Assembly: GCA_903828665.1 (NCBI GenBank)
Contig: CAIKMZ010000132.1
Location: 1 to 33,508 of the forward strand
From: an uncultured beta proteobacterium
GTDB taxonomy: Bacteria; Pseudomonadota; Gammaproteobacteria; Burkholderiales; Burkholderiaceae_C
Length of the DNA: 33,508 bases
Reading direction: 5' to 3'
Position 1 is the stretch's first letter. Each line of letters starts with the position of its first letter. Made by a program: the position numbers and the translations under genes. This document shows, piece after piece, positions 9,963 to 32,083 of this stretch. The notes under the pieces were generated by a model. It saw only the letters and a list, made by a program, of their open reading frames with translations, was not told the DNA's origin and did no database searches.

Positions 9963-9977
9963 GGGATAATCCTGTTC

Positions 9978-16705: not shown

Positions 16706-16738
16706 ATGGCAGTATGGCGTTCGGGCTCCACAATATGA
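16706..16738 (+). CDS. possible 10-residue leader ORF
   Basis: ATG at 16706 follows GAGGAA (16694-16699) at ideal spacing and encodes MAVWRSGSTI. Its TGA overlaps the ATG at 16735 of the following PAS-GGDEF frame (ATGA). This could couple translation to the downstream gene. It may be chance, since another ATG (16714) lies in the downstream frame. Confidence 0.3.
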   Translation: MAVWRSGSTI

Positions 16739-18345
16739 CCGACAAGAAAGCTTCAGACGCAGCCCCGAAAGCCGCAGCAGTCGTGTCCGGTGCACCGGTC
16801 AACGCCGCCTCTGCGATCAACCGGGAGGCCTTGCTCAGCCGTGCCAGGGCCGTTGCCCACGAAGAGCAAAAAGGTTCTCCTGGTTCGAGCGAGCATTTGT
16901 GGCCGGCACTTGCCCGGCAAGCACTGCAGGAACTGCGCGTGCATCAGATCGAGCTCGAAATGCAGAACGAGGAACTGCGTCGCAACCAGATGAAACTCGA
17001 CGCCGAGCGCGAGCGCTACTTCGACCTCTATGACCTCGCGCCGGTCGGCTATATCAGCGTCAGCGAGCAGGACTCGATCCTGGAGATCAACCTTGGCGCC
17101 GTCAAACTGCTCGGCAGCTCACGCCGGCAATTGCTCAGCCAGCGCTTCAGCCAGTTCATCGAGCGGCAGCACCAGGACAGCTACTACCTGGCCCGGAAGC
17201 AGCTTCTTGCCAGCCGCCAGACGCAGAGCTTCGACCTGCAGATGCTGGGCGAGCAGGGCCGGCCATTGTGGGTCAAGCTGATCGCCAGCGTGGTGCAAAA
17301 GGACGGCGGCGACGAAATCCGCATCGTGCTGAGCGACATTAGCGAGCGCAAGCAGGCGGAAATCGCGCTGGAGCAATCCGAGCGTGCGCTGCGCATCAGC
17401 GAAAGGCAGATGGAGATCGTGCAGCGCATCAGCGCCACCGGTTCCTAGACCTACAACCTCGCCACCGGCGAAATTTTCGGCTCGTCCGAAGGGATGCACA
17501 TCTTCGGCTTTCCGCCGGTGGCCGGCAGTTTACCGATCGGTCGCTTTGAAGCCTGCATTGCCGGGCAGGACCGGCAGCGGGTTCACGAAAGCCTCATGGC
17601 GCTGATCGCCGACGAAGGCGAATACGACCTCGAGTTCAGCGTCATGCCGGCCGACGGATCGGCGCAGCGGATTACCCACTCGATCGGGGTTCTGGAACGC
17701 GACGCGACGGGCAAACCGGCGCTCGTGCTGGGCTTTGTTCAGGACATCACCGAGCGCAAACGGATGGAGCAAAGCGTGCGGCAACTGGCCTTCTTCGACC
17801 CGCTGACGGCGCCGCCCAATCGCCGCCTGTTGCTCGATCGCCTGGGCCAAGCCAGCGCGGCCGCAGAGCGCAGTGATGTCTTCGGCGCGCTGCTGTACCT
17901 GGACCTGGATAATTTCAAGCCCCTCAATGACCGGTACGGGCACGATGCGGGAGACCTGCTGTTGCAGGTCGTCGCCCGCCGGCTCAAGGAGTGCGTTCGC
18001 GAAGTGGATACGGTGTCGCGCGTCGGGGGCGATGAATTCGTGGTGGTGCTGGCGGGCCTGGTTGCGGACCCGTCAGACGCGCGGGAGCGAGCCGGCATGA
18101 TTGCGGAGAAGGTCCGGCTGGCATTGGCCATGCCGTACCTTCTGGATATCCAGCAAAAAGGCACCGGCGCCAGCCGGGTCGCGCATGACTGCTCGGCCAG
18201 CATCGGCGTGGTGCTGTTCAGCAAGCAGCATCGAAACCTGGAGGGCATCGTGAAATGGGCAGATGCCGCGATGTACCGGTCCAAAGAAGACGGGGGCAAT
18301 CGCGTGACGTTCATGATCGAACGACGCACGCAGCAGCGGCCTTGA
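16735..18345 (+). pseudogene. PAS-PAS-GGDEF diguanylate cyclase interrupted by in-frame TAG
   Basis: One continuous frame encodes an N-terminal linker and coiled segment (HQIELEMQNEELRR), a first PAS domain (LYDLAPVGYISVSEQ to VLSDISERKQAE), a second PAS domain ending GFVQDITERKRMEQ, and a GGDEF domain. A TAG at 17446-17448 falls in ISATGS-stop-TYNL, where family members commonly have tryptophan (TGG). The GGDEF motif is intact at 18025-18039, with an inhibitory-site RxxD (REVD) five residues before it, but the usual LTGLPNR reads LTAPPNR. ATG 17494 could restart a PAS-fragment plus GGDEF protein of 283 residues. No membrane segments are seen. The frame also opens at ATG 16714. Confidence 0.82.
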
Positions 18346-18500
18346 ATGACCCGCACGACACGCAGCTTGCGGTCGCTGCCACTTTCTCCGGAACATCGCT
18401 GAGGCACCCATGGGGATTGATGCGGGATTGCCGATCAATTTAACGTCTGCTTGCATGCCACGCAGATTCCGGAGCCAATTGCTTATGCTCCCGGCAAGCA

Positions 18501-19232
18501 CTAGATTGGATGCGTGACTCTTCGCAGGAAGTCCTTGGTACGCTCGTGCTGCGGGTCACTCAGGACAGCGCGCGCCGGGCCTTGCTCGACGATGTGACCC
18601 CGGTCGATGAAGACAACGCGGTCCGCGACCTCGCGTGCAAAGCCCATCTCGTGCGTCACGACGATCATCGTCATGCCTTGATCGGCCAGCGCCCGCATGA
18701 CGGCCAAGACCTCGCCTACAAGTTCCGGGTCGAGGGCTGATGTCGGCTCATCAAACAGGATCGCGCGCGGTTGCATCGCCAGCGCCCGGGCAATGGCCAC
18801 CCGCTGCTGCTGACCACCGGAGAGGTTGCGAGGATAGGCATCCTCCTTGCCTGCCAGTCCGACCTGGGCAAGCAGATTGCGCGCTTTCAAAGCGGCCGCG
18901 TTTCGCGATTCGTGCTTGACGTAGATCGGGCCTTCCATCACATTTTCCAACGCCGTGCGGTGCGGGAAGAGGTTGAATCGCTGAAAGACCATCGCGACCC
19001 TTTCGCGAATGGCGATCATGTGGCGGCCGACCTGATCGACGCGCTGACCTTCAACCGTGATGTCGCCGCCGTCGTAGGTTTCCAGGCCGTTGACACATCG
19101 CAACAGCGTGGACTTGCCCGAACCCGAGGCGCCGATGACACACACGACCTCGCCCTGCGCGACATCAAGGGAGATGCCGTCAAGCACGAGATTGGTTCCA
19201 AAAGACTTGCTGATATTGCGTATCGAGATCAT
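18501..19232 (-). CDS. polar amino acid ABC transporter, ATP-binding protein (unit 1)
   Basis: A 243-residue ATPase of the GlnQ/HisP family. Walker A is GASGSGKST (34-42), the Q-loop is Gln84 in FQRFNLFPH, the signature is LSGGQ (137-141), Walker B is ILFDEP (158-163) and the switch histidine is His194. It overlaps the permease gene by four bases (ATGA) and is last in the order oxidoreductase, binding protein, permease, ATPase. It powers import through a single permease type. Its 3' end faces the GGDEF gene across a 155-base gap in which nothing was recognised. Confidence 0.95.
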
Positions 19233-19885
19233 GAGCGTCCAAACCTTTTCTCAAGCCGACCAACAACCATGATCAACGGTATGCACAGCAACAAGTAGAA
19301 CAGTGCAACCAGGGTAAACACCTCCGCGTTCTTGAAAGTCGAAGCTGCGATGACCTTGCTTTGGAAAGTGAGTTCGGTCACCGTGATGATCGATGCCTGT
19401 GACGTATCCTTGATCAGCATGATGCAGGTATTGCCGTATGGCGGAAGCGCAATCTTGAAGGCCTGGGGCAATACGACGCGCCATAGGGTCATGGCCTGGC
19501 TCATGCCGAGCGACTTTGCCGCCTCCACCTGTCCCGGGTCAACCGCTTCGATGCCGCCGCGAAAGACTTCGGCCATGTAACACGAGTAGGCAAAGCCAAG
19601 ACCGATGAAGCCGGCCTGGAAGGCCGTCATCTGGATGCCGACATCGGGCAATACGAAGTAGATAAAGAAGAGCTGCACCAGAATCGGAATGCCACGAATG
19701 GTGTTGATCAATGCCTTGGAGAACCCGGCAAGCGCCGGGACCCCGGAAACCCGCAACAGCGCCCATAGCAGGCCCAGCGCTGTGGCGACGATCAGACCGC
19801 AGACGAAGACCTCGATGGTTACCAGGGCCCCCTGGGCCAGGATCGGCACAAATTCAGCGATATCCTTCAATGCGAACGCGGTCAT
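19229..19885 (-). CDS. polar amino acid ABC transporter, permease (unit 1)
   Basis: A 218-residue HisM/GlnP-type permease with about five membrane helices. The opening [16 protein letters not shown], the [15 protein letters not shown] segment and the cytoplasmic coupling loop [20 protein letters not shown] (EAA motif) are diagnostic. It is the only permease of this unit, so it probably works as a homodimer. It lies 23 bases after the binding-protein gene and overlaps the ATPase start. Confidence 0.94.
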
Positions 19886-19908
19886 GGATCATTCCCTTGT
19901 TGGGCAGA

Positions 19909-20655
19909 TTACTTCAGATTCCAAGTGGCCAGGATTCGGTCAATGGTGCCATTGGCCTTGAACTTGGTCAGAGCCGCGTTGAGCTTGTCAAGCGTTGCCT
20001 TGTCGCCCTTGCGCACTGCCAGGCCAACGCTGCCGACCACCGCCGCCTTGTAGTTCTTTGCCAGCCTTGTTTCCGGGAACGCACCCTGGCTCAACTGATA
20101 GGCCACGATGGGGTAATCACCAAAACCTGCCTTGATGCGGCCCAGGTTGACATCGCGCATGATGTCAGGAATCGAGTCGTAGACCTTGACTTCCTTGAAC
20201 AGACCCGAAGCCTGAAGCGGCTTGATGTAGGCGGTGCCGATCTGCACGCCAACGATCTCACCCTTGAGGTCATCGTAGCTTTTGTAATCCTTGGTGTCCT
20301 TCGCTGCGACAAAGAGGCCGTCGCCGTAGGTGTAGATCGGGTCGCTGAAGTCGACCACCTCCTGGCGTGTCGGCGTGATGTACATCGCCGCGGCGATCAC
20401 GTCGATCTTGTTGGACTGGAGCGACGCGATCAATGCGCTGAAGGCCATCGCATTCACGTCTGCCGTGAAACCCTGGTCCTTGCCGATCTCCTTGATCAGA
20501 TCGACCATCACGCCGGAAATCTGATTGGTCTTGGTATCGAGGAAAGTGAATGGAACCCCGGTCGGGGTGGAGCCGATGCGCAGGGTCGTTTGAGCGCTCG
20601 CGAGCGAGCCAACGAATACCAGGCACAAGGCGAACAAGCGAAATAGTCTCGACAT
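19909..20655 (-). CDS. periplasmic amino acid-binding protein (unit 1)
   Basis: A 248-residue family 3 solute-binding protein. The signal peptide runs to about residue 21 (ASA, before QTTLRIG). IGSTPTGVPFTFLDTKTNQI, GVMVDLIKEIGKDQGF and FSDPIYTYGDGLFV are typical of the amino-acid-binding fold. The ATG at 20655 is chosen because AAGGAA lies six bases upstream; the TTG at 20670 overlaps that site. The ligand is not predictable by eye, but the partner FAD enzyme suggests an amine-bearing compound. Confidence 0.92.
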   Translation of the reverse strand: MSRLFRLFALCLVFVGSLASAQTTLRIGSTPTGVPFTFLDTKTNQISGVMVDLIKEIGKDQGFTADVNAMAFSALIASLQSNKIDVIAAAMYITPTRQEVVDFSDPIYTYGDGLFVAAKDTKDYKSYDDLKGEIVGVQIGTAYIKPLQASGLFKEVKVYDSIPDIMRDVNLGRIKAGFGDYPIVAYQLSQGAFPETRLAKNYKAAVVGSVGLAVRKGDKATLDKLNAALTKFKANGTIDRILATWNLK

Positions 20656-20715
20656 GATGTTTCCTTTCAAGGGTAAAGCGGGGGGACTGAAAAAAAGGTG
20701 CGGGCCGCGATGCGC

Positions 20716-21999
20716 CTATGCGGCTTCCATCTCATCGCGAACACGGTAGTAGCTTACCAACACCCGGGCCACAAGCCGGGTGAAAGGGTAACCCACGATC
20801 GGGTGCATCGAGGTCACGGGAAAAGGGATGTCCTTTGCGGGGACACCCGAGGCCAGATCGGCCAGCAGTCGACCCAGCAGAGTCGCCATGCCCACGCCTC
20901 GACCGTTGTAGCCCATCGCGGCCCACAAGCCCTTGTCAAGTTGATTGAGGTGTGGAACATGGTCTTGGGTCATCGCCACCCGTCCGGCCCAATGAAACTC
21001 GAACGGCGTGCTGCTGAGCTGCGGGAAGAGCCGGTTGACCGCGTTGCGGACATAGTTGTCGTCGGCGGCGCCCAGGTCCTCGCGGTACGGCGCGCGTCCA
21101 CCCATGATCAACCGACCGTGAGCGTCGCGCCGGAAGTACCACAACAGCCGGCGGGTGTCGGAAGCAGCGTGCCCTTCGGCGAGGATGCTCTTGCCCAGTG
21201 CGTCCGGAATTGGAACGGTGGCGGCCTGGTAGCTCATCATGGGAACGACGGTCTTGGCGAGTCCTGGCCAGAGCCCGTCGGTGTAGCCGTTGGTCGCAAT
21301 CAGCACCTGGTCTGCGTCAATTGAACCTTGCGGAGTCGACACTCGCCACTTTGTGCCCTGTTTGCTCAAGGATAGAGCCGGCGATTCGACGTGAATCTCG
21401 GCGCCAACCCGTTGGGCGGCCGAAGCAAGGCCGCGCACATACGACATCGGCTGGACATGACCGGCACGGCGATCTTCCCAGCCGCCAAGATAATGATCAG
21501 TCCCAAGCAGCTGCGCCATCCTCGATCGATCAACCGGGGTTACGTCAGCGCCGCGGCGCTTCCAGCTGTCGCAACGCCGCAAGGCCAGAGCGAGGGACTT
21601 TGCCGAGTAGGCAGGTTGAAGCCATCCCTTGCGCTGGGCGTCACACGAAATGCCGTGCCGCTCGATCAGGCCGAATACCTCATCGCCCACGCCACCGGCT
21701 GCATCAACCATGCGAGGGCCGAGTTCCGGTCCGAACATGGCTTCAAGTTCGTCCGGGTCATATTTCAGGCCCGGTATCACTTGGCCCCCGGTTCGGCCTG
21801 AGGCGCCCCACCCGACGGTCCTGGCTTCCAGAACTCGGACCCGCTGGCCGCGCTGCGCCAATGCCAGCGCCGCGGCGCAGCCGGTAAACCCGGCGCCAAT
21901 AATCACCACATCGGCCGATACTGCGCCGTGCAACGCTTGTGCCTGCACATCGGGCACTGCGGTATTGGCCCAAAGGCATGAGCTGGTTGATTCGGACAT
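20716..21999 (-). CDS. FAD-dependent amine oxidoreductase (PuuB/DAO family)
   Basis: A 427-residue DAO-family flavoenzyme, related to gamma-glutamylputrescine oxidase and glycine/D-amino acid oxidases. The dinucleotide fold has GAGFTG (35-40) and Glu58, followed by GWGASGRTGGQVIPG, which fits a flavin-contact loop. Late blocks are MGGRAPYREDLG, WAGRVAMTQDHVPH and GYNGRGVGMATLLG. It should oxidise a C-N bond to an imine and transfer electrons to oxygen or a quinone. The ATG at 21999 has GGAG about six bases upstream. It is first in the minus-strand operon, 60 bases before the binding-protein gene, and divergent from the XRE-cupin regulator. Confidence 0.9.
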   Translation of the reverse strand: MSESTSSCLWANTAVPDVQAQALHGAVSADVVIIGAGFTGCAAALALAQRGQRVRVLEARTVGWGASGRTGGQVIPGLKYDPDELEAMFGPELGPRMVDAAGGVGDEVFGLIERHGISCDAQRKGWLQPAYSAKSLALALRRCDSWKRRGADVTPVDRSRMAQLLGTDHYLGGWEDRRAGHVQPMSYVRGLASAAQRVGAEIHVESPALSLSKQGTKWRVSTPQGSIDADQVLIATNGYTDGLWPGLAKTVVPMMSYQAATVPIPDALGKSILAEGHAASDTRRLLWYFRRDAHGRLIMGGRAPYREDLGAADDNYVRNAVNRLFPQLSSTPFEFHWAGRVAMTQDHVPHLNQLDKGLWAAMGYNGRGVGMATLLGRLLADLASGVPAKDIPFPVTSMHPIVGYPFTRLVARVLVSYYRVRDEMEAA

Positions 22000-22031
22000 T
22001 CGCGCTCCAATTTCAATTGACCACACAAAAA

Positions 22032-22046
22032 TTCAATTAGATTGAA
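22032..22046. promoter_or_regulatory. palindromic operator candidate in divergent promoter region
   Basis: A perfect inverted repeat TTCAAT-TAG-ATTGAA lies in the AT-rich gap between the flavoenzyme and the XRE-cupin gene. It covers most of the -35 element of the rightward promoter. A shorter TCAATTGA palindrome lies at 22013-22020, close to the flavoenzyme start. Binding by the adjacent regulator is inferred. Confidence 0.55.
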
Positions 22047-22070
22047 AATTACATTAATTTATTTCATAAT
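22042..22070 (+). promoter_or_regulatory. sigma-70-like promoter for the XRE-cupin regulator
   Basis: TTGAAA (22042-22047) and CATAAT (22065-22070) are separated by exactly 17 bases in an AT-rich tract. The predicted transcript start near 22077 leaves only about 5 bases before ATG 22082 but about 68 before ATG 22145, which favours the latter as start codon. Confidence 0.55.
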
Positions 22071-22144
22071 ACCCATCGGATATGGCGGTGTCAATAAGGA
22101 TTGACCCAAGACTCACCGGACCAAGACATCAAGGCTTGAACGAA

Positions 22145-22738
22145 ATGAAGAAACTCTTTGAGGCACCGACTGATACCCAGAAATCGGGGCTTGGGCTTCA
22201 GATTCGACAACGCCGGCGCATCAAGGATTTCACACTGGCTGAACTGTCAGAGAAGTCCGGGCTGTCGGTTGGTTTGTTGAGTCAGATCGAACGCGGCATC
22301 TCCTCACCGTCCCTGAAATCGATGACGCAAATCTGCTCGGCCCTGGGCATTCCGGTGAGTTGGCTGTTTGACAGCGGTTCGGCGGAGAACCCGGCCGAAA
22401 AGGGCTTGGTGGTGCGGCGCAGCTCTCGAAAGCGTCTTGATCTTGGAACGTATGGCGTGACCAAGGAACTGCTTTCGCCCGATCTGGGAGGGGAAATGCA
22501 GATCTACCTTGTCACGATCCGTCCAGGCGGGCATTCGGGCCCCGAGACCTATACGCACCGTGGTGAAGAAGGCGGGCTGGTGCTGACAGGTGCGCTGGAA
22601 CTCACGGTTGATGATCGGATCGTCGTCCTGTATGAGGGTGATTCGTTTCGCTTCAGCAGTTCGCTGCCACACCGTTTCGCCAATGCTGCGGATACCCAAT
22701 CCAGTGTCGTGTGGGCAAATTCGCTTGGCTTCTACTGA
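22145..22738 (+). CDS. XRE-family regulator with C-terminal cupin domain (PuuR-like)
   Basis: A 197-residue regulator. The helix-turn-helix spans about 17-75 (LGLQIRQRRRIKDFTLAELS, then SVGLLSQIERGISSPSL). A cupin sensor domain lies at about 115-190 (IRPGGHSGPETYTHRGEEGG and YEGDSFRFSSSLPHRFAN). This layout is shared with PuuR and many repressors of amine and amino-acid catabolism. It is divergent from the flavoenzyme and transporter operon and likely controls it and itself. An in-frame ATG at 22082 would add 21 residues; the promoter position and family length favour 22145. Confidence 0.88.
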   Translation: MKKLFEAPTDTQKSGLGLQIRQRRRIKDFTLAELSEKSGLSVGLLSQIERGISSPSLKSMTQICSALGIPVSWLFDSGSAENPAEKGLVVRRSSRKRLDLGTYGVTKELLSPDLGGEMQIYLVTIRPGGHSGPETYTHRGEEGGLVLTGALELTVDDRIVVLYEGDSFRFSSSLPHRFANAADTQSSVVWANSLGFY

Positions 22739-22862
22739 ACCTGAGGGCTTTGGCCTTGCGCGATTGACGCGCTTGCCGGCCGCAACTTGACAGGGAAGAC
22801 CGCGGCTTCGAACTGGGTAGACTGGGACCATCTCGGAAACGAATCACACAGAGGGTAACTGC

Positions 22863-23207
22863 ATGATCCAACGCATGGAAATCGGCGCACGGATGTCCGA
22901 GGTGGCTGTGCACAATGGCACGATCTATTTGGCCGGGCAGGTCGCGAGTGACGCCAGAGCAGACATTCAGGGCCAAACCCGGCAGATTCTTGCCGAAATC
23001 GACACATGGCTGGCCCGTGCCGGCAGCGACAAGAGCAAGATTCTGATGGCACAGATCTTTCTAACCGACCTGGCCGACTTCGCGGGCATGAACGAGGTTT
23101 GGGATGCTTGGGTTGTGCCCGGCCAGACACCACCGCGTGCAACCGTGCAGGCCGCGCTTGCCAAGCCGGGCTGGAAAATTGAGGTGGTCGTCACGGCGGC
23201 CGTGTGA
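22863..23207 (+). CDS. RidA-family imine deaminase
   Basis: A 114-residue YjgF/YER057c/UK114-fold protein. The N-terminus RMEIGARMSEVAVHNGTIYLAGQV belongs, by recollection, to a Rid subgroup often found next to D-amino acid dehydrogenases. Arg92 in PPRATV and Glu107 in KIEVVV match the family's active-site pair. RidA proteins hydrolyse reactive imines or enamines to ketones and ammonia, which is what an amine-oxidising flavoenzyme would release. GAGGG lies about seven bases before the ATG. It starts 124 bases after the regulator on the same strand. Confidence 0.9.
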   Translation: MIQRMEIGARMSEVAVHNGTIYLAGQVASDARADIQGQTRQILAEIDTWLARAGSDKSKILMAQIFLTDLADFAGMNEVWDAWVVPGQTPPRATVQAALAKPGWKIEVVVTAAV

Positions 23208-23329
23208 ACCACTTGGGTCGAATTCGCCCTCAATCCCCCATCGCGATCACCTGAGCGTTGATCTCCCTTATAGCGGTCAAGACCCCAACAACTCCCGCAC
23301 CAGAACTGCCGCCAAATCCGATCGGGTGC

Positions 23330-23349
23330 GTTGGCGCGATGTTGGCGCG
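23330..23349. repeat. direct repeat GTTGGCGCG x2, 11-bp period
   Basis: GTTGGCGCG occurs at 23330-23338 and again at 23341-23349, with AT between. The 11-base period places both copies on the same face of the helix. It lies upstream of the two AT-rich palindromes that precede the Lrp-family gene. The rest of the gap from 23208 shows nothing recognisable. Confidence 0.45.
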
Positions 23350-23374
23350 TCTAGGTGTAAACACTCATATGCGC

Positions 23375-23392
23375 CTATTTTTTCCAAAATAG
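23375..23392. promoter_or_regulatory. palindrome, distal operator candidate of Lrp-family gene
   Basis: A perfect inverted repeat CTATTTT-TTCC-AAAATAG lies 65 bases upstream of the Lrp-family start. It shares the TATTTT/AAAATA core with the proximal palindrome; the centres are about 35 bases apart. Its T-rich, A-rich arms fit Lrp/AsnC-type sites, which are usually multiple and phased. Confidence 0.5.
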
Positions 23393-23405
23393 AATTTGTG
23401 CTGCA

Positions 23406-23432
23406 CTAATATTTTCATTTGGAAAATATTAG
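23406..23432. promoter_or_regulatory. 27-bp perfect palindrome, proximal operator candidate of Lrp-family gene
   Basis: Eleven-base arms CTAATATTTTC and GAAAATATTAG are perfectly complementary around ATTTG. The site ends 24 bases before the regulator ATG and should overlap its promoter, consistent with autoregulation. Such a long perfect AT-rich palindrome is striking in this high-GC sequence. Confidence 0.65.
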
Positions 23433-23456
23433 ACTGATATTTTTACCTATTAGCCG

Positions 23457-23984
23457 ATGCGCGAATTTCTTGATCCAACCGATCGCCGCTTGGCCAAGTT
23501 GCTTTCCAGTGATGGGCAGGACGGGGTCAACCAGCTGGCAGACAAGCTGCGCGTCAGTGCGCCGACGGTGCGGGCTCGCCTACGATCCCTGGTCGAAAAG
23601 AACATCCTCAAAGTGGTCGGCCTGCTCAATCTGTCGGAGCGGCCGGAACTGATTGCCGCCATCGTCTGCATCAATGCCAACGCGCAGGGACACCTTGACG
23701 ACCTCATGAAGGACATCGCCAATCTGCCGTTCGTGACTTCCGTCAGCATCGTGACCGGGCGTTTCGACCTGATCGTGGAGGTGTTGGTGGATGGCGATGT
23801 CCAAGATTTGTACCGTTTCACGAGCGAACTCCTTCCCCGCGTTGCGGCGCCCGGGGTCATCAGCCGCAGCGAGGCGTTCGTCGTCATGAAGTCGCATGAA
23901 AAATGGGTCCCTCTGCCGCGCGGCTGCTGGGAGAGCAGTGCGGATGGCGCCACGGATGCCAGCATCGCAAACCCGCCCCGCTAA
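23457..23984 (+). CDS. Lrp/AsnC-family transcriptional regulator
   Basis: A 175-residue regulator. The DNA-binding helix-turn-helix is at about 24-45 (VNQLADKLRVSAPTVRARLR), and the RAM/AsnC effector domain at about 66-148 includes TGRFDLIVEV. Members bind amino acids and form octamers or hexadecamers that wrap DNA. It precedes a six-gene run for uptake and oxidation of an amino acid on the same strand and likely controls it. No ribosome site is visible before the ATG, so it may be leaderless or weakly translated. The C-terminal 25 residues lie outside the family fold. Confidence 0.9.
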   Translation: MREFLDPTDRRLAKLLSSDGQDGVNQLADKLRVSAPTVRARLRSLVEKNILKVVGLLNLSERPELIAAIVCINANAQGHLDDLMKDIANLPFVTSVSIVTGRFDLIVEVLVDGDVQDLYRFTSELLPRVAAPGVISRSEAFVVMKSHEKWVPLPRGCWESSADGATDASIANPPR

Positions 23985-24006
23985 AGGGCGGACGACTGTT
24001 TTCTAT

Positions 24007-24027
24007 CCTGGAAGGTTTTCTTCCAGG
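24007..24027 (+). promoter_or_regulatory. stem-loop in the leader of the second transporter operon
   Basis: A perfect 8-bp stem CCTGGAAG/CTTCCAGG with loop GTTTT lies between the regulator stop and the binding-protein start, 10 bases before the GAGGAG ribosome site. No T-tract follows, so it is not a classical terminator; it may be an mRNA stabiliser or a protein-binding palindrome. Confidence 0.45.
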
Positions 24028-24050
24028 GAGATCATTAGAGGAGAACGTAA

Positions 24051-24854
24051 ATGATGAAGAAGTGGAATTTCTTGCCCGCGATATTGCTTTGCGGCCTGGG
24101 CTACCTGGCTATCGCAGCAAGCGCCCACGCGTCCACGCTTGACGATATCCAGAAGCGCGGCGAGTTGCGGATTGCGGTCCAGACACAAGGGCCTCCCTTT
24201 TCAATGGTCGACAAGAACGGCGAGCGCACCGGCAGTTCGGTGGAACTGGCCAAGCTGATGGCCAAGGAGATGGGCGTCAAAGTTGTCTTTCTTGATCTTG
24301 ACTGGGATGGTTTACTGCCGGCGCTCATTTCCGGCAAGGCCGATTTGCTCGCGGCCGACATGACGCCCACCCTGGCGCGCGCAACCAAGGTCGCGTTCAC
24401 CAAGCCGTTCATGTACATCGGACCTGTCGTTGCGACCAAGGAAGGCAGCAAGTTCACCTCCCTGAACGCCTGCAAGGCGCCAGGCACAAGAATCGCCGTT
24501 CTGTTTGGCAGCACCGGTGAAAAGCTGGCCAAGACCGTCTTCGAAAAAGGCCAGATCAAGAGCTACAAGGGCGGCGGAACATTGCTGTTGGACGCTGTGA
24601 AGACCGGACAGGCCGACTGCCTGCTCAACGACAGTTCGGCCGTGGCCGGACAAGCCGCCGGGTATCCCAAGGGGACGTTCAGGGTAATGCCGGAACTGCT
24701 GGCCAAGGAGCCCCTGGCTTACGCGACGCGCTACGACTCGCTGGACCTTCTGACGTGGATGAATCTGTTCATCGATCAGACCACACTGGACGGTCGACTT
24801 CAGCAGAATCTGGACTACTGGGTCAATTCGACCAAATGGAAAGAGACGCACTGA
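24051..24854 (+). CDS. periplasmic amino acid-binding protein (unit 2)
   Basis: A 267-residue family 3 solute-binding protein. The signal peptide ends at about residue 27 (AHA). Typical blocks are RGELRIAVQTQGPPFSMVDK, VELAKLMAKEMGVKVVFLD, DLLAADMTPTLARATKVAFT and a domain-linking VLFGSTGEKLAKTVF. Cysteines in NACKAP and ADCLLN may pair. GAGGAG lies seven bases before the ATG; a second ATG follows directly. It differs clearly from the unit 1 binding protein, so the two systems probably take different ligands. Confidence 0.92.
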   Translation: MMKKWNFLPAILLCGLGYLAIAASAHASTLDDIQKRGELRIAVQTQGPPFSMVDKNGERTGSSVELAKLMAKEMGVKVVFLDLDWDGLLPALISGKADLLAADMTPTLARATKVAFTKPFMYIGPVVATKEGSKFTSLNACKAPGTRIAVLFGSTGEKLAKTVFEKGQIKSYKGGGTLLLDAVKTGQADCLLNDSSAVAGQAAGYPKGTFRVMPELLAKEPLAYATRYDSLDLLTWMNLFIDQTTLDGRLQQNLDYWVNSTKWKETH

Positions 24855-24937
24855 GCGCCTGATCTGACCGCAGGTCCGGCATGGTTTGCGCCGTGCCGGA
24901 CCCGGTGCACCGTATTCATCCAACCCTTGGTTCGCGA

Positions 24938-25606
24938 ATGCTATTGAGTCTGAATTTTCGGGTGATCGGAGAGACCCTTCCCGACTATTGGGCGGGATTC
25001 CTGTCCACGCTGTCGATTTCACTGACTGCATTCGCAGGTGCCATTGCCATCGGCATCATCGCCTGCGCGATGAGCATCCAGCCGTCGCGGCTGGTTCGGG
25101 CACCGGCAGTGGCCTATGTGGATGTGATCCGGGCCACGCCCTTGCTGGCCCAACTCTATTTCCTGTACTTCGGATTGCCGAATTTCGGCGTGATCATGCC
25201 GGAGATCATGATTGGAATCATCGCCCTGTCCATCAACAGCGGCGCCTATGTCAGCGAGATCATCCGCTCCGGGATCATGTCAATTTCCCGGGGTCAGGTC
25301 GAGGCCAGTGCCAGTTCGGGAATGACATACTGGCAGCAAATGCGCCTCATCATCCTGCCGCAGGCGTTGCGCCCGATGGTGTCTCCGATGATCGGACAAG
25401 CCATCGTGCTGGTCAAGGACTCATCGTTGCTGTCCCTGATTTCGGTTCTGGAGTTGACGCGTGCCGGTCAGACCCTGGCCAATGACCGGTTCATGCCGGT
25501 GGAAGGCTTGACGACCACTGCGGTCGGCTACCTGATCATCTATTTCGGACTGAAGCTGATGGCCATGGCATGGATGCGCATCAACCAGTCATCCGCGCGC
25601 CACTGA
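24938..25606 (+). CDS. polar amino acid ABC transporter, permease A (unit 2)
   Basis: A 222-residue GlnP/HisQ-type permease. The family-typical opening is NFRVIGETLPDYWAGFLSTL. YVDVIRATPLLAQLYFLYFG and the coupling loop VEASASSGMTYWQQMRLIIL are diagnostic. The ATG at 24938 is preferred because it gives the normal N-terminus; an ATG at 24881 would add 19 residues without similarity. It is followed 11 bases later by a second, different permease, so a heterodimeric channel is likely. Confidence 0.92.
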   Translation: MLLSLNFRVIGETLPDYWAGFLSTLSISLTAFAGAIAIGIIACAMSIQPSRLVRAPAVAYVDVIRATPLLAQLYFLYFGLPNFGVIMPEIMIGIIALSINSGAYVSEIIRSGIMSISRGQVEASASSGMTYWQQMRLIILPQALRPMVSPMIGQAIVLVKDSSLLSLISVLELTRAGQTLANDRFMPVEGLTTTAVGYLIIYFGLKLMAMAWMRINQSSARH

Positions 25607-25617
25607 AGGACGAAGCC

Positions 25618-26286
25618 ATGACCATGTTTTTCGACCAACTGTACGGCATCGCCCAGTATTACCCGGTGGTTCTCAAGGGCATCGGCGTCACCCTGGCGCT
25701 CTCATTCATCGGCATCGTCGCCGGAACCTTCTTCGGCTTCGTGCTGGGCGTCGGTCGCGCCAGTTCCCACCGGTGGCTTGCCGGCATCGTCGGCGCCTAC
25801 ACCGACATCTTTCGCGGAACACCGGTTCTGGTGCAGGTGTTCGTCGTGTTCTTCATCCTTCCCGAGGCGGGCATCGAGCTGGACTCGTTCTCGGCGGGTG
25901 CGCTGGCGCTGTCCAATATCACGGCCTGTTTCATCTCTGAAATCGTCGCATCGGGCATCAAGGCGATACCGGTCGGGCAGGTGGAGGCAGCCGCGTCGGC
26001 CGGCCTGACACGCTTGCAGCAACTCAGGCTCATCGTGCTGCCCCAAGCCACCCGGATGATCGTGCCGTCTCTGGTCGGCCAGTTCGTGCTGCTGGTCAAG
26101 GATTCATCGGTGGTGTCGGCCATCGGTCTGCTCGACTTGACGCGCTCCGGCTGGGTCATCGTTCAAAGCATTCCCAACGGACTGATGGTTTTTTCCGTCA
26201 TCGGAATGGGCTATTTCGTGATCTGCTATCCCTTGCTGCACTTGTCACGACGTCTGGAAAAAGCCCAGCTTCACAACGCCAGCTGA
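25618..26286 (+). CDS. polar amino acid ABC transporter, permease B (unit 2)
   Basis: A 222-residue permease paired with the preceding one. [39 protein letters not shown] and the coupling loop [20 protein letters not shown] identify the family. The start at 25618 has AAGGA about seven bases upstream; the frame is open earlier but that part overlaps permease A. About five membrane helices are visible. Confidence 0.94.
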
Positions 26287-26339
26287 AGACCCATCACAGC
26301 CGCTCACGGCAATCACGAACACGACGAGGACTATCGGGC

Positions 26340-27065
26340 ATGATCAAATTCAACCAAATCAACAAGTGGTACGGCACGCATCACGTTTTGCAGAACATCA
26401 ACCTTGAAGTCGCCAAGGGCGAAGTGGTGGTGGTTTGCGGACCGAGCGGGTCGGGCAAGAGCACATTGATCCGCTGCGTCAATGGTCTGGAAAAATTTCA
26501 GAGCGGCACATTGATCGTCGACAGCCTGCCCGTCGCCGATGACGCAAATCTGAGGCCGCTGCGAATGGAGCTTGGCTTCGTCTTCCAGCAATTCAACCTG
26601 TATCCCCACAAGACGGCGCTTGAAAATGTCACGCTGGCGCCAATTCACGTGCGCCGGCTTGCCAGGAAGGAAGCTGACAGCCGGGGGCGGGAGATGCTGG
26701 AAAAGGTTGGGCTGGGCGACAAGTTCAATTCCTACCCGTTGCAGTTGTCGGGCGGCCAACAACAACGGGTCGCCATCGCCCGCAGCCTTTGCATGCAGCC
26801 CAAGGTCATGCTCTTTGACGAGCCCACCTCCGCGCTCGACCCGGAAATGATCAACGAGGTTCTGGATGTGATGGTTTCCCTGGCTAGGGACGGCATGACC
26901 ATGATTGTTGTCACCCATGAAATGGGATTCGCACGCAAGGTTGCCGATCGTGTCGTGTTCATCGACAAGGGGGCGATTGTCGAGGTTGCCGAGCCGGAGG
27001 CCTTCTTCACAACGCCGCGCAATGAGCGGACACGCGAATTCCTTGGGAAGATTCTTCACCACTAG
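26340..27065 (+). CDS. polar amino acid ABC transporter, ATP-binding protein (unit 2)
   Basis: A 241-residue GlnQ/HisP-type ATPase. Walker A is GPSGSGKST (34-42), the Q-loop Gln83 in FQQFNLYPH, the signature LSGGQ (136-140), Walker B VMLFDEP (156-162) and the switch His193 in VVTHEMGFA. It starts 53 bases after permease B, with GAGGA upstream, and completes the second importer. It is clearly divergent from the unit 1 ATPase between Walker A and the signature, so this is not a recent duplication. Confidence 0.95.
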
Positions 27066-27111
27066 GCATCGCAACTGCGGTCGGAAAACGAAAAAACTTT
27101 GGGAAGAATTG

Positions 27112-28389
27112 ATGAGTCATACAGATGCACAGGCAGCAGGGAACAACCGTTCCGTTGCCATTGTCGGAGCCGGCGTTGTCGGCGCAGCGACCGCCCTGGC
27201 GCTCGCAGTCCAGGGCTATCGGGTCACCGTCATTGACCATGGCGAGGTGGGCGCCGGAACGAGTTCCGGCAACGCCGGCGGCATTGTCACCGGCGCTGTG
27301 ACGCCAACCGCTACGCCCGGCGTGCTTCGATCAATTCCGTCTTATGTATTTGACCGCAATGGGGCCGCTGTCCTGCGTCCCTCGTATTTCTTTCAAGTGC
27401 TGCCGTGGCTTCTTCGCTTTATCGAGGCCGGTCGTCCGGCCCGGGTTGCCGGCATTGCCCGGGCACTCGAACCGCTGGTCTCCGGTTCAATGCAGGCGCA
27501 CCTTGCATTGGCCGACTTGAGTGGTGCCAGAGACCTGATCCGACCGGTGGGTTGGCTCAAGGTCTACAAGTCGGATGCGGGCTTTGCCGACACCGCCTTC
27601 GAGCGCGAACTGATGACGCGGCACGGTGTCAATTTTGCGATTCTCAATGCCGCAGAAATTGCCGATCTGGAACCCGGGCTCAACGCGAGTTCGTACACGC
27701 GTGGCGTATTCCAGCCCGACAGCGGCTTCGTCAATTACCCCAGGGCTTTGACAAACGCCTACTTCGAAGGCGCGCGCCAGCGGCAGGCGCAGTACATTCA
27801 GGAGAGCGTGCTGGAACTCAGCCCCGGCCAGGGCGGTGGCGTGACGATCAGGACCAACAGGACGACACGGCAGTTCGATTCTGTGGTGGTCGCTGCGGGC
27901 GCCTGGTCAAAGCAATTCGCCAAGCAGATTGGCGACAGCGTCTGCCTCGACACCGAGCGGGGCTACCACATTTCATTTGGCTCGACAGGCAACGAACTGC
28001 TGCGCCGTCCTGTCGGCTTCCCGGAGAAGCACTGCGTCCTGTCACCCATGCACGACGGCATTTCCCTGGTGACTGGCGACGAATTGGCGGGACTGACCGC
28101 GCCGCCCGATTACCGGCGCGTGCGCGCACTGGCGCCTTTCGCACGCAGTGTGCTGCCGGGTCTTGCCGAACAGGCGATTCAGCGTGAATGGATGGGTTAC
28201 CGTCCATCGACGCCCGATTCCCTGCCTGTGATCGGGCGTTCGCCAAGCTGCAAGAACGTGTTCTATGCCTTTGGCCACGGCCATCTGGGATTGACATTGG
28301 CCGCGATCACGGCCCAATTGATCGCCAGCATGGTCAGCGATCGTCCGGATCCGTTTGACCTGTCTCCGTATCGAATCGCAAGGTTCTGA
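27112..28389 (+). CDS. FAD-dependent D-amino acid dehydrogenase-like oxidoreductase (DadA family)
   Basis: A 425-residue DAO-family flavoenzyme. The FAD fold has GAGVVG (19-24), Asp42 and the loop GAGTSSGNAGGI (47-58). Late motifs DTERGYHISF, EWMGYRPSTPDSLPVIG and YAFGHGHLGLTLA match DadA, which oxidises D-amino acids to 2-oxo acids through an imine. GGGAAG lies just before the ATG. It lies 46 bases after the ATPase and 21 before the racemase, so it belongs to the unit 2 operon. It is a different subfamily from the unit 1 flavoenzyme. The substrate is unknown. Confidence 0.9.
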   Translation: MSHTDAQAAGNNRSVAIVGAGVVGAATALALAVQGYRVTVIDHGEVGAGTSSGNAGGIVTGAVTPTATPGVLRSIPSYVFDRNGAAVLRPSYFFQVLPWLLRFIEAGRPARVAGIARALEPLVSGSMQAHLALADLSGARDLIRPVGWLKVYKSDAGFADTAFERELMTRHGVNFAILNAAEIADLEPGLNASSYTRGVFQPDSGFVNYPRALTNAYFEGARQRQAQYIQESVLELSPGQGGGVTIRTNRTTRQFDSVVVAAGAWSKQFAKQIGDSVCLDTERGYHISFGSTGNELLRRPVGFPEKHCVLSPMHDGISLVTGDELAGLTAPPDYRRVRALAPFARSVLPGLAEQAIQREWMGYRPSTPDSLPVIGRSPSCKNVFYAFGHGHLGLTLAAITAQLIASMVSDRPDPFDLSPYRIARF

Positions 28390-28410
28390 GCAGCCGAATC
28401 CCCCGAAACC

Positions 28411-29151
28411 ATGGACGCCCCCACTGGCGAGTCAACGATGGAAATCAAGCGCCGACCGGCGAAGATCGGAATCTTGTGCTGGGAAGCCGGACAGGTCCCC
28501 AAGGGCCTGCTTCAGCTCGAGACCCTTCCAGGCAACAGCACGAATCCCGCGTCGTATGCATACGATGTCAGGTTCCATCGCGTATCCGGTGCCAACGTCC
28601 ACACGATTCTTGAAAAGCCCGATCAAGCCGTTCTGGAGACGATGATTGCCGATGCCAAGGTGATGGTGTCGGAAGGAATCAAGGCCATCACGACCAGTTG
28701 CGGATTCAATGCCATTTTCCAGCGGGAACTGGCCAGGGCTGTGGGTGCGCCAGTCTTTACGTCCAGTCTCCTGCAAGTTCCCTTGGCGAGGCAGATCAAC
28801 GGGCCGGATAGCGAGATCTGCATCATCACGGCCAACGCCAGTGCGCTTGGTCCGGAGCACCTGAAGTCGGTTGGCGTCACAAGCACAGCGGGCCTGCACA
28901 TCATAGGCTTGGAGAAATGTGCCGAATGGAACAGGATGTTCGCGGAACCGACCGCCGAAATCGATCTTGATGTCATCGAACAGGAAGTGCTGGACACGGC
29001 ACTTCGAGCCCTTGACGTGCATCCAGGCATTCAGACCTTCGTCCTTGAATGCACCGATCTGCCACCTTATTCTGCAGCGATTCGACGCCAGGCAGGCCTG
29101 CCAGTCTTCGATTTCATCACCATGGTCAACTACCTGCATTCAGCCATCTGA
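28411..29151 (+). CDS. Asp/Glu/hydantoin racemase-family protein
   Basis: A 246-residue protein with the duplicated alpha/beta fold of Asp/Glu and hydantoin racemases. The two catalytic-type cysteines are Cys97 in TTSCGFNA and Cys214 in VLECTDLPPYS, in the mirror positions expected for cofactor-free racemases. The opening AKIGILCWEAGQVPKGLLQ is unlike classical MurI. It ends the unit 2 operon, where it could convert an imported L-amino acid to the D-form used by the DadA-like enzyme, or the reverse. ATG 28438 (residue 10) is an alternative start. Confidence 0.85.
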   Translation: MDAPTGESTMEIKRRPAKIGILCWEAGQVPKGLLQLETLPGNSTNPASYAYDVRFHRVSGANVHTILEKPDQAVLETMIADAKVMVSEGIKAITTSCGFNAIFQRELARAVGAPVFTSSLLQVPLARQINGPDSEICIITANASALGPEHLKSVGVTSTAGLHIIGLEKCAEWNRMFAEPTAEIDLDVIEQEVLDTALRALDVHPGIQTFVLECTDLPPYSAAIRRQAGLPVFDFITMVNYLHSAI

Positions 29152-29653
29152 CCGACCTGTCCTGAACGTTCTCGCCGGCTTCTTTGGAAGCGTTGTTCGT
29201 GGTGACGACCGGTATGCGTTGGCCAAGGACTGAAACCTGCAACAGCCCAATTGATTTCACGCTGCGTCGCCGGGTGAACTGATCGGCCCCATTTGCGGTG
29301 CGGCTCAGTCGAGGTCCGCGTGGATGTCTGGCAGGCCGGGTCCGGTCGTGTGCAGGTCCAGGGACGTGAACGCGTCGTCTGCGTGATCGATTTGCCGTCG
29401 CCTTGGGGCACGTGAAAGCCACCGACCGCCGCGTGCCAAGGGCATCGGGCCTTGAGCCCGAGCGCCCTGGACGCCATGCATCTGGCGAAGCGCTTGCGCA
29501 CGGTCTTCGCATCGAAAACCAGCGGCGCGTCGCCACCACCCTGTTGGCGGCCAATACGTTGTCGGAACCCTCGGAAAGCCATGGGCCCTGGCTTTCTTGA
29601 GGCAGTCTCTTTCAAGAAGCGGAACCACCTGGCGCTGGCGCCGCTTCACGGGT
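29152..29653. other. 502-base stretch without a convincing gene
   Basis: Overlapping open frames exist on both strands, but none shows a recognisable family, a ribosome site or a natural amino acid composition; most are Arg/Pro-rich. One plus-strand piece (around 29300-29410, reading RVDVWQAGSGRVQVQGRERV) and one minus-strand piece (HADDAFTSLDLHTTGPGLPD) look slightly protein-like. A decayed gene is possible but not supported. Confidence 0.4.
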
Positions 29654-30538
29654 TCACTTGAATGACATCTCATCCCACCACGGGAAGAAATCCGGCATGT
29701 CGGTTGACACCCGATCCGGATAGGCCGGCGCACGTTTTTCCAGAAAAGCGCTGACGCCCTCTTTGGCGTCGGCCGATCGGCCACGCGCTTGCAAGGCTCG
29801 GCTGTCAATCTGATGGGCGCGCATCGGGTCATCTGCGCCCGACATGCGCCAGAGCATCTGGCGCGTCAAGGCGATGGACACCGGCGCCGTGTTGTCCGCG
29901 ATTTCCCGGGCCAGGGCGCGCACCGCAGGCAACAGGTCCTCGGGGGCATGAACCGAGCGCACCAGGCCGTGCCTGAGCGCTTCTGCTGCGTCAAAGACAC
30001 GACCGGTGTAGCACCATTCGAGTGCCGTCTGCATGCCTACCAGCCGGGAAAGAAACCAGGAAGAGGCAGCCTCCGGAACGATGCCACGGCGCGCAAAGAC
30101 AAAACCGAAGCGGGCGTTGCTCGAGGCCATCCGGATATCCATGGGCAAGAGCATCGTCACCCCGATCCCGACGGCGGCTCCGTTGATCGCGCCGATCACC
30201 GGCTTGAGGCTGCGAAACGTTCGCAGGGTCTGCAGTCCGCCACCATCCCGGTACACGTCGCCGACCCGGGTGGACTCGCGCTGCGGATTGGCCTGCGCCG
30301 CATAGTCAAACGTTTCTCCACCGCGCGACAAATTCGCTCCCGCGCAAAACGCCTTGCCGGCGCCCGTGACAATGACCACACGCACGGCGTCGTCCGCATC
30401 GGTTTCGTCAAATACTGAGATCAGTTCGTCACGCATTCGCGGCGTGTACGCATTCATCTTTTCGGGCCGGTTCAGGGTGACGGTCGCAATGCCCTTGTCA
30501 ACCGCGTAGAGCACCGTTTGCAGGTCGTTCAATGCCAT
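29654..30538 (-). CDS. enoyl-CoA hydratase/isomerase (crotonase) family protein
   Basis: A 294-residue crotonase-fold enzyme. The first oxyanion-hole block is TGAGKAFCAGANLSRGG (58-74), the second is GAINGAAVGIGVTML (116-130), and the catalytic glutamate is Glu156 in RRGIVPEAASSW. The N-terminal VTLNRPEKMNAYTPRMRDEL is typical. The C-terminal segment (FLEKRAPAYPDRVSTDMPDF) is like the longer enoyl-CoA hydratases of actinobacteria and proteobacteria. It acts on an acyl-CoA in the cytosol. GGAG lies nine bases before the ATG. It is convergent with the racemase operon. Confidence 0.9.
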   Translation of the reverse strand: MALNDLQTVLYAVDKGIATVTLNRPEKMNAYTPRMRDELISVFDETDADDAVRVVIVTGAGKAFCAGANLSRGGETFDYAAQANPQRESTRVGDVYRDGGGLQTLRTFRSLKPVIGAINGAAVGIGVTMLLPMDIRMASSNARFGFVFARRGIVPEAASSWFLSRLVGMQTALEWCYTGRVFDAAEALRHGLVRSVHAPEDLLPAVRALAREIADNTAPVSIALTRQMLWRMSGADDPMRAHQIDSRALQARGRSADAKEGVSAFLEKRAPAYPDRVSTDMPDFFPWWDEMSFK

Positions 30539-30841
30539 CTCGATTCTCTCCAGTCTTGGGGTGGGAACGGGTCCGGGGTTGCGGCGGCGGCAGTGGCAAA
30601 TCGAAACCTACTGCGAATGACCACGGGATATTTTCCGAGTGTAGATTGCCTTGCTGGCGGTCCGCCACATCCAGGAAATCGAATCTGTCACCTGGGTAAC
30701 TGCCTGGGCAATTCGAGCCACTGCGGCGACCGGCCGATTCTCAGGCCTTTGCCTGTCGACACGATGCCAGTTGTTGCGATTTGTCAACCGGCTCGGGACA
30801 ATTGCTTTTAAGGTGGCAGTCGTGATGCGTCGGGGGGCTCC
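30539..30841. other. 303-base intergenic gap
   Basis: This gap separates the starts of two divergent genes and must hold both promoters. TTGTCA lies in an AT-richer patch near 30780-30810 before the lipoprotein gene, without a clear -10 partner. No convincing small gene is seen. Confidence 0.4.
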
Positions 30842-32083
30842 ATGAACAAGAAGCTGAGACGGATATTGCTTGCATTGGCAAGCGCGGGCGTGTTGACGAT
30901 CAATGCCTGCGGAGGCGGCGGGGGCGGCGGCGACTACGAGATCACGCCATTCTGGACGCAGTCCGGCATGGTGCTCGGAGATTTCAACGGCGACGGGCGC
31001 CTTGACGTTGCCGTGGCCAACACCTATATCAGCGGGCCGCCGCCGCACGTCGGCTATGTCGACGTGTTCCTGCAGACACCGACAGGCGGCTTTGATCCGC
31101 CGGTCCAGTACCCTGCCGGACCCGACCCCTGGGCCTTGGCGGCGGGCGACCTGAACGGCGACGGGCTAACCGACCTGGTTGCCGTCACGCCGAGGAACGG
31201 CCCCGCGCAGATCAATGTGATCGGCGACAGCGGCGGCGTGTCGATTCTGCGTCAGGATGGCGCGCATCCGGGACAGTTCCTGGGTCCACAGTGGATCGCC
31301 ACCGGCGGTGGCCCGCAAAGCGCCGCCGTTGCAGACCTCAATGCGGACGGCGCCGCCGATTTGCTGGTGGCCGATGCGATCACGGTCAATGGGCGGGTAT
31401 TGCTCTACCAGCAAAACCGGTCGCTCGCCGGGACCTTTCTTGCGCCCACAGCCCTGCAGACGGGTGGCGGGTCCGTCGCAGTGGTCCTCAAGGATTTGAA
31501 CGGCGATGGCCTGAACGACATGGTCGTGTCGGTCTACGACCGAATCATCGCCTTCTATCAGCGACCGGGCGGCGGCTTGGACGCGCCCGTTACCCTGGCC
31601 ACGGGACAGACGATCAGCAGCCTCGCAGTGGCCGATATCGACGGCGACGGGCGAGCCGACATCGTCGCCACCAGTGCCGGCAATGCACCGGCCGGCGGCA
31701 CAGGCGGCGCCAGCGTCATGATTCTTCGGCAAGTCAGCGCCGGCAGTTTCCAGGCCACGACCGTTGCGGTAGCCGACGGGGCGGTCGGCGTTGCGGTGGG
31801 CGACCTCAACGGCGACGCAATCGCCGACATTGCGGTCGTATCGCTGGTGTACCAGTCCTTGTCGAAACCGTCCTACGTGACCGTCCTGTTGCAGTCAGAC
31901 ACCGACCGCGGCCAGTTCAGCCTGCCGGTCGTCTACGAGGGGCCTTACTCGGGGAACTTCATCGGCATTGGCGACGCCAACGGCGACGGTCGCAACGACA
32001 TCATCCTGAACGACGGACCCAGTGTCCTTCTGCAACGCGCGTCGGCACCGGGCACTTTCGACCCGGTGCGGCCCTTGCGCTAG
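30842..32083 (+). CDS. FG-GAP/VCBS-repeat lipoprotein, predicted seven-bladed beta-propeller
   Basis: A 413-residue exported protein. A signal peptide ends in the lipobox INAC with Cys23, followed by a run of seven glycines as linker. Seven FG-GAP-type calcium loops follow, recognisable as DFNGDGRLD, DLNGDGLTD, DLNADGAAD, DLNGDGLND, DIDGDGRAD, DLNGDAIAD and DANGDGRND. Seven such repeats fit one complete beta-propeller. The sixth loop lacks the second glycine (DGDG becomes GDAI). It probably sits on the outer membrane and binds calcium; the ligand is unknown. A GGGGGG run precedes the ATG. Confidence 0.9.
   Translation: MNKKLRRILLALASAGVLTINACGGGGGGGDYEITPFWTQSGMVLGDFNGDGRLDVAVANTYISGPPPHVGYVDVFLQTPTGGFDPPVQYPAGPDPWALAAGDLNGDGLTDLVAVTPRNGPAQINVIGDSGGVSILRQDGAHPGQFLGPQWIATGGGPQSAAVADLNADGAADLLVADAITVNGRVLLYQQNRSLAGTFLAPTALQTGGGSVAVVLKDLNGDGLNDMVVSVYDRIIAFYQRPGGGLDAPVTLATGQTISSLAVADIDGDGRADIVATSAGNAPAGGTGGASVMILRQVSAGSFQATTVAVADGAVGVAVGDLNGDAIADIAVVSLVYQSLSKPSYVTVLLQSDTDRGQFSLPVVYEGPYSGNFIGIGDANGDGRNDIILNDGPSVLLQRASAPGTFDPVRPLR

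Follow-up and report, generated by a model that had tools for sequence, protein, structure and literature searches.

Two import-and-oxidation cassettes side by side in an uncultured beta proteobacterium, one of them probably dad-like

We analysed a stretch of 33,508 nucleotides (the window) from an uncultured beta proteobacterium (GenBank assembly GCA_903828665.1, contig CAIKMZ010000132.1, positions 1 to 33,508), whose genome is a draft of 3.74 Mb in 167 contigs. Two gene sets for the import and oxidation of amino-acid-like compounds lie next to each other in the window. Cassette A (18501-22738) encodes a flavoenzyme, a binding protein, a single permease and an ATPase, with an XRE-cupin regulator divergent from them; cassette B (22863-29151) encodes a Rid protein, an Lrp-type regulator, a binding protein, two permeases, an ATPase, a DadA-like flavoenzyme and an Asp/Glu-fold racemase. 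Profile searches bore out the gene calls of a first-pass annotation, each gene it named being an open frame on the strand given and of the kinship given. That annotation had joined the two halves into a single locus. We think it quite probable, taking our explanation as a whole, that they are two independent catabolic cassettes; by analogy with a known Pseudomonas system, cassette B is most likely a 'dad-like' unit that would combine import, racemization, D-oxidation and imine hydrolysis.

The genes of cassette B all read on the plus strand. The Rid protein (22863..23207; PF01042, 97.7 bits) is closest to the Rid2 subfamily, and the Lrp/AsnC-type regulator (23457..23984) scores over cut-off on both PF01037 (31 bits) and PF13404 (30.7 bits). 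These are followed by an ATP-binding cassette (ABC) importer, made up of the periplasmic binding protein SBP2 (24051..24854; PF00497, 109.6 bits), two permeases (24881..25606; TIGR01726, 96.7 bits; and 25570..26286, with a start probably near 25618; TIGR01726, 94.1 bits) and the ATPase ATP2 (26340..27065; PF00005, 121.5 bits). Last come the DadA-like flavin adenine dinucleotide (FAD) enzyme, DADA (about 27112..28389; PF01266, 219.7 bits), and the racemase, RACE (28438..29151; PF01177).

RACE scores 267.5 bits against NF005679, over the curated cut-off of 231. NF005679 is the model of the PRK07475 subfamily and is named only 'hypothetical protein', whereas the neighbourhood of RACE suggests a catabolic amino-acid racemase. 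Cysteines C88 and C205 are invariant across 41 aligned racemases, a selection from the loci fetched; conservation of two cysteines is also a trait of two-base racemases. The predicted structure (pLDDT 94.8) has as fold neighbours in the Protein Data Bank (PDB) an arylmalonate decarboxylase and glutamate, hydantoin, aspartate and allantoin racemases (Foldseek best E 6.7e-8, TM-scores mostly 0.45-0.6). Three PF01168 (alanine-racemase-N) matches in the same genome all lie on contigs other than that of the window. For DADA, the earlier label 'DadA-like' holds as to kinship but needs tightening; we rejected true DadA identity because the protein scores 174 bits on the D-amino acid dehydrogenase model NF001933 (cut-off 383) and a separate gene of the same genome, judged by its score the likely true DadA, reaches 422. 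The genome contains 35 DAO-family matches, ten of them long and including the two in the window (E 1e-74 to 3e-46).

Among the 11 PDB sequence matches of the Rid protein are PSPTO_0102 (rank 1) and PA5083 (rank 6). One study presents both as Rid2 proteins and describes Rid2 proteins as deaminating the iminoarginine produced by a D-arginine dehydrogenase (PMC5619798). The arginine of the PPRATV motif in the window's Rid protein aligns with an arginine in all four PDB alignments shown, and we read it as the key arginine, the probable counterpart of RidA Arg-105.

Cassette B recurs in other genomes. A scan of named genomes for RACE gave 60 loci, the 17 closest of which (L020-L036) have racemases of 66-83% identity; loci L080, L081, L082, L083, L084, L104 and L105 were taken as L022, L024, L021, L020, L035, L036 and L032, respectively, and counted once. 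Gene lists for loci outside the window came from a simple longest-frame script, and in the 17 loci a core gene was scored at ≥60% identity only. In 11 of the 17 the seven-gene core is complete, with the genes for Lrp, SBP2, both permeases, ATPase, DADA and RACE following one another as in the window; three have six and lack Lrp, and three have fewer, L021 being cut by a contig end and L023 and L034 being odd. L022, L024 and L025 are flanked by generic importer ATPases at 30-42% identity, below the limit for counting. The Rid gene is present in five of the 17 loci, beside Lrp in three and directly after RACE in two; an asparaginase-family gene lies directly ahead of it in L083 (= L020; 10062-11084).

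Upstream of the Lrp gene is a palindrome, CTAATATTTTC-ATTTG-GAAAATATTAG (23406..23432), predicted to be the probable Lrp operator. In 11 of 12 loci, counting the window, the Lrp gene is preceded by a site of the form TTTTC-N3-7-GAAAA that scores 9/10 or better. Six of these match at 10/10, each matched in at most 1 of 300 single-base shuffles, and five match at 9/10 (L024, L026, L028, L029 and L036; matched in 1-7% of shuffles); the site in L031 reaches 8/10 and is equalled in 29% of shuffles.

The motifs VQTQGPPF, DLDWDG, AADMTPTLAR and FGSTGEK of SBP2 are identical in all 15 distinct cassette-B binding proteins, the window's included. Using ligand-contact positions that we take from LAO and GlnBP, sequence comparison indicated that SBP2 keeps the Arg and Asp of the binding pocket, residues that in its family presumably hold the alpha-carboxylate and alpha-amino groups of the ligand. 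Of the five PDB sequences closest to SBP2, four (two of them one ancestral protein) have Asp/Glu at one and Tyr/Phe at the other of two further pocket positions, where SBP2 has Gln and Gly, respectively; the fifth, 9e2b, differs. The Gln and the Gly are constant in 15/15 of the distinct cassette-B sequences. SBP1, the binding protein of cassette A, and two of its orthologues have Thr and Gly at the same two positions. Though this is not a proof, we take the pattern to suggest binding of an alpha-amino acid in an unusual side-chain pocket, with Lys or Arg the less likely ligands.

In cassette A, four genes follow one another closely on the minus strand in the order FLA1, SBP1, PERM1, ATP1. FLA1 (20716..21999; PF01266, 235.7 bits) is an FAD enzyme of the AmaA/DAO kind whose longest frame opens at 22026, with the likely start at 21999. 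SBP1 (19909..20655; PF00497, 119.5 bits) has GlnPQ domains and AncQR as its best PDB sequence relatives, PERM1 (19229..19885; TIGR01726, 102.2 bits, cut-off 42.2) is the single permease, and ATP1 (18501..19232; PF00005, 123.6 bits), an amino-acid ABC importer ATPase, has the same neighbours in loci L096, L097 and L125. The gene for a PuuR-like XRE-cupin regulator (22082..22738, plus strand; PF01381 and PF07883 over cut-off) diverges from FLA1. The importers of both cassettes are of the polar amino-acid ABC class, with an SBP_bac_3 binding protein, HEQRo-type permease and ATPase. In agreement with the earlier proposal, neither unit is a recent duplicate of the other: their ATPases are 56% identical, the binding proteins 30% over 119 amino acids and the permeases 35-37%, and the flavoenzymes match over 48 amino acids only.

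The former description of FLA1 as 'PuuB-like' is right about flavoenzyme kinship and needs tightening. The nearest model is that of the L-pipecolate oxidase AmaA (NF050086), which FLA1 covers almost completely at 340 bits, far short of the cut-off of 600, and true identity with PuuB, a gamma-glutamylputrescine oxidase, was rejected. We likewise rejected a Puu putrescine pathway, since the regulator scores 67.5 bits on the PuuR model (cut-off 211) and no glutamine-synthetase-, aldehyde-dehydrogenase- or hydrolase-type Puu partner was found in a family scan of the frames at 16714-33505. Unlike AmaA and PuuB, FLA1 is also linked to an importer of its own.

The control region of cassette A contains a palindrome, TTCAAT-TAG-ATTGAA (22032..22046), predicted from sequence as the probable operator of the XRE-cupin regulator. 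An identical palindrome is present in L092, and the copy in L093 is degenerate. A promoter-like TTGAAA-17-CATAAT box for the XRE-cupin gene (22042..22070, plus strand) overlaps the palindrome, with the same hexamers and spacing in L092 and L093. Next to the palindrome is an opposing promoter-like TTGACA-17-TATTAT box for cassette A (22066..22094, minus strand, 11/12 matches). Promoter-like sites are no commoner in this region than by chance, with four found against 3.2 expected in shuffles. The pattern TTCAATNNNATTGAAA, derived from the XRE-side palindrome, has one match in the genome (control 0), and the core TATTTTC-N4-6-GAAAATA of the Lrp-side palindrome occurs in one place with both strands read (control 0); both patterns were built from the window's own sites, so that this uniqueness is after the fact. 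Because each cassette has its own operator-like palindrome, found once in this genome, we regard A and B as probably wired separately.

Cassette A, too, has relatives elsewhere. FLA1, SBP1, PERM1 and ATP1 occur together in L096, L097, L125 and L126, and at 44-68% identity in six of eight plasmid records opened (L115, L116 and L118-L121) out of 84 matching, the hosts being Burkholderia, Paraburkholderia (two strains of one species), Caballeronia, Variovorax and Pseudomonas oryzihabitans. The annotated regulator in L116 and L121 is of the IclR family. Of the remaining two plasmids, L114 has a FLA1 relative next to oxoprolinase-family genes and L117 has one next to a different ABC importer, and in L103 (genome G620) FLA1 sits at a contig end with its downstream side beyond the contig. 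Judged by these gene sets, cassette A is a recurrent, separate import-and-oxidise quartet. In the Paraburkholderia plasmid locus L116 an asparaginase is annotated about 2 kb upstream of it.

The first-pass annotation had read the whole block as one locus for uptake, stereo-inversion, oxidation and imine clearance with two sensors, so that one substrate or its relatives would be handled by the two importers, the two flavoenzymes, the racemase and Rid alike. Such a pathway remains credible for cassette B alone, with one sensor; we rejected it for both halves together and consider a shared substrate very unlikely. The A and B genes are adjacent in the window, SBP1 and SBP2 both have unusual residues at one and the same pair of pocket positions, and two of the 17 genomes with cassette B (G704 and G702) also have cassette A. 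However, neighbourhood of the two halves in related genomes had been set beforehand as the test capable of refuting a single locus, and a search for conservation of the whole block in relatives found A and B adjacent only in the window among the loci examined, most of them from draft genomes. No cassette-A gene at ≥60% identity lies in any of the 17 RACE loci; their upstream flank is at least 2.7 kb in 11 and at most 0.4 kb, and so uninformative, in six. FLA1, sought in all 17 genomes (1e-80), matched in G704 (71%) and G702 (46%), where the cassette-A genes stand together on a contig other than that of cassette B; the XRE-cupin match in G702 is just 36%. In L096, L097 and L125 (G704), no Rid or Lrp match was found in the ≥2.5 kb beyond the XRE gene. 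The Rid gene travels with cassette B and the XRE-cupin gene with cassette A, and the separate operator-like sites likewise argue against a composite.

The distribution of the two flavoenzymes points the same way. We used samples of 100 relatives, 250 genomes of the family and 399 of the order, which overlap, each include the window's own genome and were searched at different thresholds. Among the 100, relatives of DADA at ≥73% identity occur in six genomes including our own (any match at 1e-60 in 16, the rest at 34-39%) and relatives of FLA1 at ≥78% in three including our own (with two more at 41-42%, five in all at 1e-90); the window's genome is the only one with close relatives of both. In the family sample (1e-130), FLA1 was found in our genome and G620, and DADA in our genome and G633. 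In the order sample, FLA1 was found in our genome only (1e-150), and DADA in our genome and G440 (1e-130).

Two more distant loci bring the enzyme types closer. L047 has a 32% FLA1-family match 7.5 kb from its racemase, and L112, on a plasmid of Rhizobium sp. CB3060 (3986-9987), joins a RACE relative (40%) and a FLA1-type enzyme (37%) near one two-permease amino-acid importer. L112 favours the composite reading and is the nearest thing seen to the combined locus. A caution follows for similar work: adjacency in one draft genome can merge two unrelated cassettes.

Cassette B alone resembles the dad (alanine) locus of Pseudomonas, which comprises the AsnC-type regulator DadR, DadA, the racemase DadX and the Rid2 protein DadY (PMC9714295). 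There, DadA releases an imine and in vitro DadY deaminates it, and a dadY mutant grows normally on alanine in monoculture and loses only in competition (PMC9714295). Cassette B likewise encodes together an AsnC/Lrp-type regulator, a DadA-kind FAD enzyme, a racemase and a Rid2-like protein with the key arginine. It differs in that its racemase is of the Asp/Glu fold rather than PLP-dependent like the alanine racemase DadX, its DADA falls below the D-amino acid dehydrogenase cut-off, it includes a dedicated ABC importer, and the genome encodes a likely true DadA at another place. Because it lacks two defining features, a DadA over the cut-off and a PLP racemase, we class cassette B as a variant of dad and not as a member. 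A second relevant system is dguRABC of Pseudomonas aeruginosa, used for D-glutamate, in which a DadA-like dehydrogenase is found with a Rid protein; we take PA5083, among the PDB matches above, to be DguB. The dgu cluster is not known to include a complete importer or a racemase. Searches of open-licence papers, judged by titles and abstract openings, turned up no description of either cassette; one article treats D-amino acid genes in general terms (PMC12363236).

We infer the following reactions, in this order, for cassette B. SBP2 and the ABC importer would take up an alpha-amino acid, probably non-cationic, in its L-form, its D-form or both. RACE, with two cysteines and no cofactor, would interconvert the enantiomers, DADA would oxidise the D-form to an imine with electrons passing to the respiratory chain, and the Rid protein would speed hydrolysis of the imine, giving a 2-oxo acid plus ammonia. 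The 2-oxo acid probably enters central metabolism directly, as the conserved core has nothing to handle it. The Lrp-type regulator would sense the amino acid and act at the palindrome ahead of its own gene. In cassette A, the importer would bring in an amino-acid-like compound, the AmaA-type FLA1 would oxidise its amine, probably a substituted or ring amine, and the XRE-cupin regulator would control the set from the divergent operator.

Cassette B might instead serve for scavenging of D-amino acids only, with SBP2 importing D-forms from peptidoglycan or necromass, DADA oxidising them and RACE feeding excess D-form into L-pools. This is conceivable, and the DadA-like enzyme, the Rid2-like protein and the asparaginase-family gene directly ahead of Rid in L020 are in keeping with it. 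However, the pairing of a racemase with a D-specific dehydrogenase is best understood if the L-form serves as a feed as well, as for DadX and DadA, and scavenging alone therefore seems to us the less plausible account. We retain the dad-like scheme, in which the L-form would probably be a feed too.

Loci with more distant RACE relatives show different partners around the racemase. In Leisingera and Ruegeria, a TRAP-TAXI importer is followed by a DadA-like gene (31-33% to DADA) and a RACE relative (38-41%), and in Rhizobium and Shinella a RACE relative (38-41%) follows an ABC importer; these are four records opened of 162 matching plasmid records. In genome G066 (L085), four consecutive genes encode a permease, an importer ATPase and relatives of DADA (35%) and RACE (37%). 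A further 43 loci (L037-L079) are mostly from other phyla, and one of them, L053, gave no usable frame. Their commonest neighbours within five frames are of the alanine-dehydrogenase type (19), the saccharopine-dehydrogenase type (18) and the Na+/H+ antiporter type (15), as counted by sequence clustering with the family name of each cluster resting on one member; neighbours in other phyla also include a PLP racemase family.

These neighbourhoods bear on a different possibility, that RACE is a relative of hydantoin- or maleate-type isomerases acting on a ring or N-carbamoyl compound. Hydantoin racemase 2eq5 and the allantoin racemase 5lg5 are indeed among its fold neighbours, but neither a hydantoinase nor a carbamoylase gene is in the conserved core, and the amino-acid dehydrogenase and PLP racemase families seen in other phyla speak for amino acids; we find this reading unlikely. 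We suggest, tentatively and as something a little short of an even chance when all its parts are taken together, that PRK07475 comprises widespread cofactor-independent catabolic racemases acting as interchangeable 'enantiomer converters'. In aerobic Proteobacteria their partners would be FAD D-dehydrogenases and importers of the ABC or TRAP class; in Synergistetes, Spirochaetes and Firmicutes, they would be enzymes of the alanine-dehydrogenase and saccharopine-dehydrogenase types. On this view, a non-standard or D-amino acid would enter through cassette B by way of a binding protein that has lost the acidic and aromatic residues which usually contact the side chain.

Several points weigh against our explanation of two separate cassettes with a dad-like B. 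The genome is a draft, and the join between A and B may be an assembly error; L112 argues against strict separation of the cassette kinds. DADA could oxidise another amine, its sequence relatives in the PDB being oxidases of glycine, sarcosine and other amines. As arylmalonate decarboxylase and the racemases of hydantoin and allantoin are near RACE in modelled fold, the substrate of RACE may differ from a free amino acid. The Rid gene is in just five of the 17 loci, several of them cut by contig ends, and imine clearance may be optional; the dadY mutant, with its normal growth in monoculture and loss only in competition, fits a Rid gene present in some loci only. L023 (1-1242) consists of RACE and an opposing Lrp fragment, without a nearby importer or dehydrogenase, and L034 (4646-7176) of a lone 34-residue ATPase piece followed by DADA, RACE and Rid; these remnants reflect either decay or assembly breaks.

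Through this analysis, a racemase subfamily annotated as 'hypothetical protein' gains a testable function. The results further suggest that the plan of dad, with sensor, racemase, D-dehydrogenase and imine deaminase, has been rebuilt with an unrelated racemase and an importer of its own. The PRK07475 subfamily, and the swapping of importers and dehydrogenases around it, is the part most worth testing.

Some further observations concern relatives of these genes. Two RACE relatives lie near each other on the same strand in L077 (1494-4447) and L056 (2582-4156), perhaps duplicated racemases of different specificity. At nine loci of Firmicutes type (L052, L054, L057, L058, L061, L063, L064, L069 and L070), small conserved clusters look by eye only like selenium metabolism (for example, SelD-like). 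L089 (2876-7597), from a genome of the same genus (G016), has an import-and-oxidise unit made up of a DadA-like gene (37%), a permease, a binding protein, a permease and an ATPase (58% to ATP2), with no racemase match in the unit.

Rfam and tRNA scans of the window gave zero matches. Upstream of cassette A, a PAS/GGDEF signalling gene (16714-18345, plus strand) forms one frame in which a lone stop codon at 17446 separates the PAS part from the GGDEF part, and represents either two genes or one broken gene. Downstream of cassette B, at 30842-33505, are genes for an FG-GAP repeat protein, a SOUL haem-binding protein and a partial beta-lactamase-family protein, apparently unrelated to either cassette.

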